From an uncultured Elusimicrobia bacterium (GTDB taxonomy: Bacteria; Elusimicrobiota; Elusimicrobia; Elusimicrobiales; UBA9959), in NCBI GenBank assembly GCA_903867985.1, contig CAIPTO010000089.1, forward strand, positions 1-33,302: a stretch of 33,302 nt of DNA, in the 5' to 3' direction. Shown in pieces: positions 28,892 to 33,302 of the stretch. The notes below the pieces were generated by a model. The model worked only from the letters and a program-made list of their open reading frames with translations, had not been told where the DNA came from and ran no database searches. The number at the start of each line of letters is the position of its first letter. Position 1 is the first letter of the stretch. The position numbers and the translations under genes are program-made.

Positions 28892-29740
28892 ATGAAAAAA
28901 CTATTAACCATGGTTATGATAGTCACCTCGGCTGGCCTGGCCTGCGCGGGAGAAACCGAAACGACGGCCCTGAACGCCGCCAGCCTTACTGGAGTGAACA
29001 TATCCGCCATGCGGGCGATAGACGTCCCCGCGGCGCCTGCGGCTGTCAAAGTGACATCCTCCGCCAGCTGGATAAAGGCCGTGAAAAAGGAATATTTAAG
29101 ACTGCTTGATACCGGAAATATACAAAGCCTACCGGCAGCCAATATCTCTGAACTCCCCGACGCGGCCAAACAGCAACTGAAGGAAGATAACACTAATCTG
29201 GGACCGGATTACCCCTCTATCGCTTATAAAATGGAATTACAGGGCGCCACCGCTTTCATTATCCATAATGAAAACGACGGGGGAATGTTCACCACTATTT
29301 TCGACGAAATAGGACAAAAGATCGCAGAAGGCAGCTGCGGGGAAAGCGGTGAATTTTCCTGGGACACCTCCAAAGGCGCCGCCATACGGAAAACCAATGC
29401 CCTGGCAGCGGTGAAGGGTACGCCCACCTATATGTGGGTAAAAGCCGTTAAAAAAGAATATTTAAGGCTGTTCAATGAAGGCAATCTCGGAACCCTGCCC
29501 GTGGCTAAAATATCGGAACTTCCCGCCGACGCCAAGCAGCAGCTTAAGGCGGACAATACGGCTTGGGGACCGGAGTATCCCTCCATCCCTTATAAAATGG
29601 TACTACAGGGAATGACCGCTTTCATTATCCATAACGAGAACGACGACGGCATGTTCGTCGCGATATTTGATAAGCGCGGAAACTATATCGCTGCCGGATT
29701 CCGCGATAACGGCGGAACCTTCGCCTGGGACGATATTTAA
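28892..29740 (+). CDS. secreted protein of two 99-residue repeats, function unknown
   Basis: I do not recognise this 282-residue exported protein. A signal peptide occupies residues 1-19 (MKKLLTMVMIVTSAGLACA); the lipobox is poor, so signal peptidase I cleavage is more likely. Two repeats, residues 60-158 and 182-280, align over 99 positions without gaps and share about two thirds of their residues. Shared blocks include KAVKKEYLRL, ISELP, the motif TAFIIHNEND and a final WD. The spacing is 122 residues. It has its own promoter-like sequence and a downstream terminator, so it is probably monocistronic. A periplasmic or surface role is inference. Confidence 0.82.
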   Translation: MKKLLTMVMIVTSAGLACAGETETTALNAASLTGVNISAMRAIDVPAAPAAVKVTSSASWIKAVKKEYLRLLDTGNIQSLPAANISELPDAAKQQLKEDNTNLGPDYPSIAYKMELQGATAFIIHNENDGGMFTTIFDEIGQKIAEGSCGESGEFSWDTSKGAAIRKTNALAAVKGTPTYMWVKAVKKEYLRLFNEGNLGTLPVAKISELPADAKQQLKADNTAWGPEYPSIPYKMVLQGMTAFIIHNENDDGMFVAIFDKRGNYIAAGFRDNGGTFAWDDI

Positions 29741-30900: not shown

Positions 30901-30970
30901 ATCCGCCCGCGTTCATCCTTCCAAAAGATTTAAAAACTGCCCCCCTCCCGCCATCCCCTGCCTGATACAG

Positions 30971-30986
30971 AGCAATTTTTATGCCA
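30971..30986 (-). promoter_or_regulatory. -24/-12 (sigma-54-type) promoter of the sigma-54-like gene
   Basis: The minus strand reads TGGCATAAAAATTGCT, matching the sigma-54 consensus TGGCAC-R-N4-TTGCW except for one base, with the invariant GG and GC ten bases apart. The predicted start is near 30960, about 60 bases before the ATG at 30900. Confidence 0.75.
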
Positions 30987-31074
30987 GAATATATTAAAAC
31001 ATTTATTTGTCAGATTTTCACAATGAAAACTCCGCCGGGGAAGGAATTTTAATATAATGTCAAAGCGGTGCGAA

Positions 31075-31114
31075 TATTTTCATTTGAAAATATTTATTTT
31101 CGTTTGAGAATGTT
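31075..31114. promoter_or_regulatory. two tandem 20-bp partly palindromic sites, likely regulator binding sites
   Basis: Two adjacent 20-base units at 31075-31094 and 31095-31114 differ only by three A-to-G changes. The first contains ATTTTC-ATTT-GAAAAT symmetry. They lie 115-154 bases upstream of the predicted sigma-54 start at 30960, a normal enhancer distance. They also lie just ahead of the divergent activator gene, so they may control both directions. Confidence 0.6.
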
Positions 31115-31141
31115 TTTAAGAAAATCAGCAGGGGGCTTACA

Positions 31142-32515
31142 GTGACTAAATTAAATATCCTTGTCGTGGAAGACGATAAACTGGCGCAGAAAGTCATGTC
31201 CGGCCATTTACGCGCTCACAATGTTGATCTGGCGGGCGACAAAAAAACCGCTTTAGCAAAATTGGCAAATGGCCATTACGACATCTGCTTTTTTGACCTT
31301 ATGCTGGGGCCTAAAGACGATTATTCCGGCTTGAAGCTGATCCCTGTCGCCGTCTCCAAGGGCTTTTACTGCGTGGTAATGTCCGGCTCCGACTCCGACG
31401 AAATAATAAACAAGGCTTACGGTCTGGGCTGTAAAGATTTTTATTCCAAAGGCAATGAGGAGTCCAACGTTGAGGCTGTTATCAGAAAATATTTCCAGAG
31501 CAGGACCGGAACAGCCGGCGCCGATGTTTTTTCAAGCCGCTTCGTGACCTCGGACCCCGCCACCAGGGCCGTCGTGAGCGAAGCTCTTAAATACGCGCCC
31601 TCGGAATTACCCATTCTTATCCTGGGCCCCTCCGGCTCGGGCAAAACCTCCCTGGCCAAAATTATCCACGACTATTCCGGCAGGGAAGGCTCTTTTGTGG
31701 CCATCAATTGCTCCGCCTACACCGAAGACTTGCTTGAGGCTGAACTTTTCGGCCATAAAAAAGGCGCCTTCACCGGGGCCGGAGAAACCCGCAAAGGCCG
31801 CCTGCTGGAGGCTCACAAAGGAACCTTGTTCCTGGACGAGATAGGCACCATGAGCCTTAACATGCAGATGAAACTGCTCAAAGCCATAGAGGAGCGCTCT
31901 TTCTACCCGCTGGGCTCCGATAAACCGGAGCATTCAGAATTCCGCATAATAAGCGCCACCCTGGAAAACATACAACAACTCATTTCGCAGGGGAAAATGC
32001 GCCTGGACCTGTTTCAGCGCATACACGGATTCACCATAGACCTGAGCCCGCTGAGCCGCAGAAAGGACGATATTTTCCCGCTCCTAACTCACTTCACGGC
32101 CGGCACCAAACGGCTGGCATTTTCTCCGGATGCGAAAGCCTATATTCAGAATTATACCTGGCCGGGCAATGTCAGAGAGCTGAAAAGATTTTCCGAGCTT
32201 CTGGTCAGCGGCTCGGAAGGGAGGATAGATCTTGAAGCGGTAAAACAACATCTTACCGCCTCCGACCCCGCCGCACCGGCAGGGAAATTATCAGGGGGCG
32301 ACGCCTATCGGCACGCCCTGGCCAACGGCCTTGAACGGACCTTGGACCGGGTAGCTTACGAGATAATCCAGCGGAGCATGACGGAGAACGGGGGCAAAAA
32401 GACCGGGACGCTTTCGGACCTTAAAATTTCAACGCGTTTTCTCTACGCCACTTTGAATAAATTCGGGGCGGTGGCTGCGCGCAAAGACAAGCAACCGCAG
32501 GGGGATGAACAATGA
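31142..32515 (+). CDS. NtrC-family sigma-54 activator (receiver, AAA+, Fis-like)
   Basis: A bacterial enhancer-binding protein of 457 residues that remodels sigma-54 polymerase with ATP. The receiver is at 4-116, with E10-D11-D12, phosphoacceptor Asp52 and Lys103. The AAA+ domain has Walker A GPSGSGKT at 162-169, the sigma-54 contact loop GAFTGA at 208-213, Walker B LFLDE with D232-E233, RLDLFQRI, and WPGNVREL. The C-terminal segment (YEIIQRSMTENGGKKTGTLS, then ISTRFLYATLNKFGA) is a divergent Fis-type helix-turn-helix. The start is GTG with AGGGGG at 31130-31135. It overlaps the DHp gene by four bases and is divergent from the sigma-54-like gene. Confidence 0.92.
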   Translation: MTKLNILVVEDDKLAQKVMSGHLRAHNVDLAGDKKTALAKLANGHYDICFFDLMLGPKDDYSGLKLIPVAVSKGFYCVVMSGSDSDEIINKAYGLGCKDFYSKGNEESNVEAVIRKYFQSRTGTAGADVFSSRFVTSDPATRAVVSEALKYAPSELPILILGPSGSGKTSLAKIIHDYSGREGSFVAINCSAYTEDLLEAELFGHKKGAFTGAGETRKGRLLEAHKGTLFLDEIGTMSLNMQMKLLKAIEERSFYPLGSDKPEHSEFRIISATLENIQQLISQGKMRLDLFQRIHGFTIDLSPLSRRKDDIFPLLTHFTAGTKRLAFSPDAKAYIQNYTWPGNVRELKRFSELLVSGSEGRIDLEAVKQHLTASDPAAPAGKLSGGDAYRHALANGLERTLDRVAYEIIQRSMTENGGKKTGTLSDLKISTRFLYATLNKFGAVAARKDKQPQGDEQ

Positions 32516-32700
32516 GCCAGCCTGACGACCTGAGCAAACTGCTGCACGATATCAAAGGAAAATGCGCCAGCATCAAAGGCGCGGCCGACTTATTCCGGGA
32601 TTGTTCGGTGGAAGAAAAACGGGAGATGCTCGCCCTCATGAGCGAGGCCGCGCGAAACATCTCCGGGACTTTGCTGGAACTGGGCAAAACTCTTAAGTAA
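32512..32700 (+). CDS. stand-alone histidine-kinase DHp-like domain, 62 residues
   Basis: A tiny protein that resembles only the dimerisation and phosphoacceptor helices of a sensor kinase. Helix 1 carries the H-box-like KLLHDIKGKCASIKGAADLF with His12. Helix 2 is EEKREMLALMSEAARNISGT, ending in LLELGKTLK. There is no ATP-binding domain in the gene or after it on this strand. Its ATG overlaps the activator's stop (ATGA) behind AGGGGG, so it is coupled to the response regulator. It could act as a histidine phosphotransferase in the manner of Spo0B/ChpT or as a dimerisation modulator; this is inference. A truncated kinase remnant is less likely because the gene is neatly coupled. Confidence 0.65.
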   Translation: MSQPDDLSKLLHDIKGKCASIKGAADLFRDCSVEEKREMLALMSEAARNISGTLLELGKTLK

Positions 32701-32815: not shown

Positions 32816-33202
32816 CTACGACCAAGGTGGTTCTTTCCCGGCGACTTTTAGCCAGGGGAGATGCGCGAACTTTTCGGGGGCGTGGCCGGTGGCCATGGTT
32901 ATGTCGGTAAAACCTTTTTCATGCAGGTCTTTGGCGATGTCTTCGCCTTTAATATCGCTTCCCAGATCTGAATCTATATACACAGGCGTGTCTTTAGGCA
33001 AAGTTTCTATACCGGCGGCAAAATCTTTTGGGGTTTTATAAGCTTTTAGTCCCACACCAGCCGCTTTAGCCGCCAACTTCCAGTTCATGTGAACCAGCAT
33101 ATCGTCGTCTAACAGGACAACCTGGTGGTCGGCACCATGCATTACTACGCTGGGAAGCTCTATCAGGACAGTCGTGCCTTTGCCAAGTGCGTTTTCCGGA
33201 GC
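32816..33202 (-). pseudogene. 3' remnant of a hybrid histidine kinase, truncated by an IS21-type end
   Basis: Read on the minus strand, the first native residues ENALGKGTTVLIELP are the last strand of a histidine-kinase ATP-binding domain. A receiver domain follows: VVLLDDDMLVHMNWKLAAKA, phosphoacceptor-type Asp in PVYIDSDLG, and a conserved-looking end GHAPEKFAHLPWLKVAGKEP. The kinase H-box, N-box and G-boxes are missing. Upstream the frame enters terminal repeats of a mobile element and meets a TAA at 33301-33299. So only the C-terminal receiver and a stub remain. A short GTG-started product from 33235 could in principle still be made. Confidence 0.8.
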
Positions 33203-33302
33203 AAAGTAGCCACCATTCCGCTGTAAAGTAGCCACTATTCCGTTACAAAGTAGCCACCGTTCCGGTGAAAGTAGCCACCCCTGTTTTTGATGGGGTGATT
33301 AA
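33203..33302. mobile_element. terminal repeat array of an IS21-type insertion sequence (edge of window)
   Basis: AAAGTAGCCAC occurs four times at 33203-33213, 33225-33235, 33247-33257 and 33268-33278, at 21-22 base spacing, with TTCCG between the first three pairs. Multiple short terminal repeats of this kind (GTGGCTACTTT on the other strand) are typical of IS21-family ends. The transposase and helper genes would lie right of the window; a minus-strand TAA at 33301-33299 may be the end of the helper gene, but that cannot be shown. The exact element end, near 33193-33203, is ambiguous because it blends with the kinase sequence. Confidence 0.7.

Follow-up and report, generated by a model that had tools for sequence, protein, structure and literature searches.

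In an uncultured member of the Elusimicrobia, is a sigma-54-like factor encoded behind the type of promoter that it would itself read? This question is raised by contig CAIPTO010000089.1 (assembly GCA_903867985.1), a 33,302-nt stretch hereafter called the window. Near its end, the open reading frame (ORF) of a compact sigma-54-like protein and that of an enhancer-binding activator, the latter with a GTG start, point away from each other across a 241-bp spacer (positions 30,901–31,141; Table 1). A first-pass annotation, made from the sequence alone, had proposed that this spacer holds an autoregulated sigma-54 loop. Our analysis supports that proposal, with the promoter present in 28 of 30 compared loci and the activator divergent in 27, and makes it very likely that the sigma-54-like gene is controlled by an activator-dependent sigma-54 promoter. 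Two parts of the proposal are less secure, namely a strict self-loop, because the genome holds a second sigma paralogue, and pure sigma-54 dependence.

The spacer and its conservation

On the minus strand, facing the sigma-54-like gene, the spacer carries an exact 16-mer (TGGCATAAAAATTGCT) that includes the GG of a -24 element and the GC of a -12 element at the normal distance of 10 bp. Taking C30972 as position -12 places the predicted transcription start near 30,960. Upstream of this promoter, two directly repeated 20-bp units (85% identical, spacing 20 bp) each contain a 14-bp palindrome of the TTTTCAWWTGAAAA type, with centers 97 and 117 bp before the -24 element. This agrees with the position expected of sites for NtrC-type activators, as enhancers usually lie ~100–150 bp upstream of sigma-54 promoters (PMC7057263). 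Promoter and tandem units were thus found exactly where the first-pass annotation had placed them. In 3000 dinucleotide shuffles of the spacer, neither the -24/-12 consensus nor a 20 + 20 tandem (≥17/20) ever appeared, and a palindrome with 10-bp arms did so in 0.1%. Since chance should produce about one match per window to the degenerate 16-bp promoter pattern when one mismatch is allowed, the window alone is only suggestive, and the weight of the evidence comes from the recurrence of the promoter across the genome and in relatives.

Table 1 Features of the spacer and the genes around it
Feature	Position	Strand	Basis and remarks
Compact sigma-54-like factor, 354 aa	29836–30900	-	Sigma54_DBD match; AlphaFold model compared with solved sigma-54
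-24/-12 promoter of the sigma-54-like gene	30986–30971	-	Exact 16-mer; conserved upstream of the gene in 28/30 loci
TATAAT, predicted sigma-70 -10 of the activator gene	31053–31058	+	Exact in 27/27 divergent spacers; predicted function
Promoter-proximal predicted activator site	31075–31094	.	Palindrome TTTTCATTTGAAAA at 31077–31090; center 97 bp upstream of the 5' T of -24
Promoter-distal predicted activator site	31095–31114	.	Palindrome TTTTCGTTTGAGAA at 31097–31110; 20 bp from the proximal site
Enhancer-binding activator, 457 aa: receiver, AAA+ with GAFTGA, helix-turn-helix-like end	31142–32515	+	Pfam and motifs
62-aa ORF, likeness to a histidine-kinase phosphoacceptor helix pair	32512–32700	+	Overlaps the activator stop; HisKA E 0.08, below the cut-off
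3' remnant of a histidine kinase with receiver	32816–33235	-	Closely like a kinase reading across contigs C66/C125

Thirty further genomes of the family contain relatives of the sigma protein at 55–67% identity, and 30 loci including that of the window were compared, with the promoter counted at ≤3 mismatches. The two loci not counted as carrying it upstream of the sigma gene are one cut by a contig end (L044) and one without a promoter (L059). In the 28 sigma-gene promoters, GG and TG are invariant and the C of -12 is replaced by T in 25%; sites of the TTTTCAWWTGAAAA type (≤3 mismatches) lie upstream of 27 of them. The proposed loop therefore survived the comparison of spacers among relatives, which had been set beforehand as a test that could refute it. 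The exact promoter pattern was also detected in 20 of the 31 genomes with this sigma type versus 1 of 28 without it (Fisher p = 5e-7), the lone exception (G018) having the activator and a fragmented assembly. As the genomes are mutually related, these promoter and locus counts are not independent.

Sigma-70-like boxes occur as well, on the activator side of the spacer and, in most relatives, also on the sigma side. Downstream of the TATAAT on the activator strand, for which no -35 box was evident by eye in the window, the palindromes fall in the predicted activator leader, and in 26 of the 27 divergent spacers a palindrome center lies 19–27 bp after this box. Bound just downstream of its own -10 element, the activator should therefore repress its own gene, a prediction from site geometry that we moderately favor. 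On the sigma side, an exact TATAAT starts 16–17 bp after TTGCTC in 19 of the 27 divergent spacers, as if a sigma-70 promoter in these relatives used the -12 element as its -35. Because of this overlap, the sigma gene of most relatives is probably not purely sigma-54 dependent. The window has lost the sigma-side -10, and its sigma gene thus looks more tightly sigma-54 dependent.

A recurring promoter and its target genes

Genome scans consisted of pattern searches and retrieved stretches of the 2.6-Mb assembly, which is 92% complete and divided into 147 contigs, so that all site counts are lower limits. The exact 16-mer occurs in six copies. A 21-mer made of the 16-mer and CTGTA matches exactly seven sites at ≤3 mismatches, and its reversed-pattern control none; the palindrome unit (≤2 mismatches) was found genome-wide only at five of these seven promoters. 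A genome scan of the kind for which the first-pass annotation had called thus delimits a regulon of seven promoters. One of them is that of the sigma gene in the window. The other six stand before genes for peptides of 55 aa (three near-identical repeats), 46 aa (radical-SAM gene downstream), and 96 aa (cysteine-rich), for a radical-SAM protein of 454 aa, for a peptide truncated at a contig end, and for a peptide of 31 aa (MTKILNLQKLETKSEDTTRAGSWISNSCGVE) that looks like a class III lanthipeptide precursor and has genes for a RamC/LanC-type synthetase and an ABC exporter behind it. The predicted sigma self-loop is thus one node of a small regulon with peptide, radical-SAM, and class III lanthipeptide genes.

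In the relatives, many target products are short, secreted-looking proteins, and a Pfam search on 82 downstream proteins returned 9 radical-SAM proteins, 6 ABC ATPases, and 3 RamC/LanC proteins, which are raw counts and not a claim of enrichment. GG and TG were required when the 56 target promoters were selected. Over 84 promoters, palindromes (≤2 mismatches) were detected upstream of 60, versus 0.42 in mononucleotide shuffles, with 45 pairs spaced 19–20 bp; at target promoters they lie mostly 60–125 bp before the -24 element.

Three further patterns were seen around target promoters. In many, a third element (YCCAATGAAA or the reverse complement) starts at a near-fixed distance, ~38–41 bp ahead of the 5' T of -24. 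Often, too, the gene for a histidine kinase with C-terminal receiver stops directly upstream of the promoter (L127, L129, L133, L134, L138, and L145), as if sensor and peptide genes traveled together. Finally, many target products (in L120, L122, L126, L130, L133, L142, L143, and L145) begin with a signal-peptide-like segment followed by a conserved DFDG motif, and no family name was found for them.

The sigma-54-like factor, its activator, and their paralogues

The Pfam search of the sigma protein matched PF04552 (Sigma54_DBD; 55.4 bits, cut-off 22.8) and no family for the core-binding domain or region I. By alignment to solved sigma-54, SRRSIAQYRKEL occupies the position of the RpoN box. With 59 bits, the protein falls below the cut-off of the canonical RpoN equivalog (NCBIfam TIGR02395, 277.35), and we therefore class it as a divergent sigma-54-like lineage rather than RpoN itself. 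Its AlphaFold model has a predicted local distance difference test score (pLDDT) of 67 overall and <50 at residues 1–25 and 67–94. Foldseek matches of this model at E < 0.001 were sigma-54 chains only, and residues 17–350 align with sigma-54 residues 12–471 (Z up to 12.4, with a high root-mean-square deviation). As modeled, the protein is a compact sigma-54 with a shortened region II; the early core-binding part is probably shortened too, and region I is probably retained. Across 59 genomes of the family, a PF04552 scan gave no match >75 bits, so that, judging from the score, ordinary RpoN seems to be missing from the family. Other sigma-54-like proteins were seen in relatives: a ~28% identical type beside its own kinase and NtrC-type activator (L149, L150), and a 350-aa protein beside sensor kinases (L018:3979–5031, contig C111), whose only Pfam match is Sigma54_DBD and whose different C-terminal half is GIY-YIG-like by eye only.

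The divergent GAFTGA activator of the first-pass annotation is borne out by the GAFTGA and Walker A (GPSGSGKT) motifs and by matches to PF00158 (Sigma54_activat, 191.7 bits) and PF00072 (receiver, 38.7 bits), the domain set of an NtrC-type AAA+ protein with a receiver. NtrC1 of Aquifex and ZraR are among its closest solved structures by sequence. Its C-terminus had no Pfam match and a pLDDT < 50 in the predicted structure; a profile of this segment retrieved three PDB matches only, all weak (E 0.5–1.8) and all of them C-termini of response regulators or of NtrC-type activators, and a Fis-like DNA-binding end is plausible.

The genome encodes a second full-length sigma paralogue (contig C86, 61% identical) and a second activator (C83, 60% identical), so that cross-activation may account for part of what looks like a closed self-loop. 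Upstream of the C83 activator gene lies CCCATTTCGGG with an imperfect second copy. The promoters at C86 and C87 have no close TTTTCAWWTGAAAA pair and carry TTCCCATTTCGGGAA and TTCCCGTTTTGAGAA. These are the only two exact matches in the genome to this second palindrome pattern, both at target promoters; at two mismatches, the pattern is at background level genome-wide (58 versus 55 in the control). In a relative (G007), GTCTCACATGAGAC at target sites is similar to GTCTCACATGAAAC, which precedes one of the activators of this genome. Activator paralogues thus differ in the palindrome type that precedes their genes, and the likely targets of each carry a similar type, which suggests, from few samples, that palindrome and activator belong together and that the promoter core is common to the circuits.

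Several ORFs adjoin these genes. The 62-aa ORF, with an HDIKGK motif, is also next to the activator gene in ~20 relatives, and its product is possibly a phosphotransfer or decoy partner. In three loci of more distant Elusimicrobia (L080, L081, L084), activator, 62-aa ORF, and sigma gene follow one another on one strand instead of being divergent. The histidine-kinase remnant had no Pfam match; from 32,816 to 33,302, the window consists of this kinase/receiver remnant at the contig end and then repeated AGTAGCCACC, which may be the end of an insertion element. On the other side, next to the sigma gene, a 282-aa ORF (28,892–29,740, plus strand) contains repeated ~100-residue segments and matches no Pfam family.

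The predicted circuit, its alternatives, and its significance

Sequence comparison establishes the promoter, the palindromes, the TATAAT, the divergent gene pair, their conservation, and the sites of the regulon, and on this basis we propose the following circuit. A sensor kinase would presumably phosphorylate the receiver-type activator, which would then bind the paired palindromes and loop to RNA polymerase carrying the sigma-54-like factor at TGGCATAAAAATTGCT. The -24/-12 promoter would open, turning on the sigma-54-like gene and supplying more of its own holoenzyme. Dispersed operons with the same core and palindromes would be switched on as well; they encode secreted peptides, radical-SAM enzymes, exporters, and a class III lanthipeptide system. 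By occupying the leader palindromes, the activator would lower its own synthesis, giving positive feedback on the sigma factor and negative feedback on the activator. A broader scheme is more tentative, and we put it forward as somewhat less than an even bet: in the place of an ordinary RpoN, a compact sigma-54 would be dedicated to a peptide-secretion regulon and act in a switch-like manner, an overlapping sigma-70 promoter (-35 on -12) giving basal sigma, the activator driving sigma and repressing itself, and new circuits arising by palindrome change at a fixed core.

Several observations weigh against the proposed circuit. The sigma-70-like -10 that most relatives have on the sigma side is missing from the window spacer, which leaves the basal supply of sigma in this genome without an explanation. 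The C86 paralogue could read the promoter. No palindrome was detectable at 20 of the 56 target promoters, some of which may thus answer to other activators or be false. Finally, the palindromes of the sigma-gene promoters gave no sign of helical phasing (R 0.17, p 0.62). A phasing signal in target promoters was set aside as confounded by related promoters. Part of this evidence would fit cross-regulation, in which the C86 paralogue or another sigma-54-like protein reads 30,971–30,986, and the window sigma is a mere target, specialized on other promoters or on one activator. We regard this as the less likely reading, although it has points in its favor: two full-length sigma paralogues are present, the -10 lost from the window would have given basal expression, and such a division of labor is known from rhizobial RpoN1/RpoN2 pairs (PMC3538637). 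Yet one core is common to all seven promoters of the genome, which shows no visible promoter split between the paralogues, and most relatives with a single sigma of this type still keep the promoter.

A sigma-54-like protein that has become independent of an activator, or has lost its function as a sigma factor, appears improbable. Pfam sees its DNA-binding domain only, the RpoN equivalog score is low, and the N-terminal model is of low confidence, but the structure alignment takes in the end of region I, and the adjoining activator, divergent in 27 of 30 loci, keeps GAFTGA. Slightly less probable still is that the palindromes serve an unrelated repressor as operators, or form a stem-loop in the activator mRNA, and that the sigma-54 promoter is controlled from elsewhere. 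Their place just 3' of the activator TATAAT in 26 of 27 spacers is a normal operator position; however, these sites also precede target promoters, some of which have no activator gene nearby, and other activator paralogues are similarly arranged, with palindrome types of their own. It is hardly credible that the promoter recurs as a dispersed repeat or mobile sequence and not as a regulatory site. Four of the seven copies, two each on C66 and C125, have homologous flanks and are copies of one ancestral region, those at C86 and C87 share part of their flanks, and transposase-like genes occur in the C87 contig. The window promoter shares only the motif with the other six copies, its flanks being unrelated to theirs, which makes at least three separate lineages of promoter site and led us to reject a mobile-repeat origin; moreover, one position before sigma genes is kept in 28 loci despite otherwise diverged spacers.

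The activator-dependent loop has partial counterparts in known systems. Like NtrC1 of Aquifex and ZraR, the activator is an AAA+ GAFTGA protein of the response-regulator type. The sigma factor of such activators is the general RpoN, encoded elsewhere, whereas here a dedicated sigma-54-like gene shares its control region with the activator. In Rhizobium etli and Mesorhizobium loti, the NifA-driven prxS-rpoN2 places a sigma-54 gene behind an activator-dependent sigma-54 promoter (PMC3538637), which resembles the present arrangement in its upstream activator site and in the positive feedback on sigma predicted here. There, however, rpoN2 follows prxS in one operon, the gene for NifA lies elsewhere, the genome has a second rpoN, and the regulon serves nitrogen fixation; here, the sigma is compact, the receiver-type activator divergent, and the targets are peptide genes. 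PspF of Escherichia coli represses its own expression from the enhancer sites used to activate its sigma-54 target pspA (PMC3709507), and the palindromes in the activator leader recall this, with negative autoregulation here predicted only from geometry; PspF differs from the Elusimicrobia activator in lacking a receiver domain and in acting on a target other than a sigma factor. In Rhodobacter sphaeroides, as cited in PMC3538637 and PMC3162934, RpoN1 and RpoN2 work with cognate activators, and specificity lies partly in promoter position -11; more than one sigma-54 per genome and dedicated activators are common to both cases, whereas here both circuits have the same promoter core and the activator palindrome differs.

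An activator-driven rpoN gene (rhizobia) and autoregulated activators (PspF) are therefore already known. What is distinctive is a compact, dedicated sigma-54 and its activator in one control region, conserved in a lineage without an obvious RpoN and with peptide targets. For the cultured Elusimicrobium minutum, sigma-54 has been reported absent (PMC3162934). A literature search, with most subscription papers outside its coverage, returned no paper on sigma-54 circuits in Elusimicrobia or on sigma-54 control of modified peptides in the phylum. A small, near-invariant promoter with its palindrome defines regulons straight from sequence, and thereby offers a handle on peptide genes of uncultured bacteria, including lanthipeptide and radical-SAM genes. 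The ~30 spacers, with at least three activator palindrome types, are natural replicates for a change of activator specificity at a constant promoter, and they bear on whether a sigma factor driving its own gene makes a switch.
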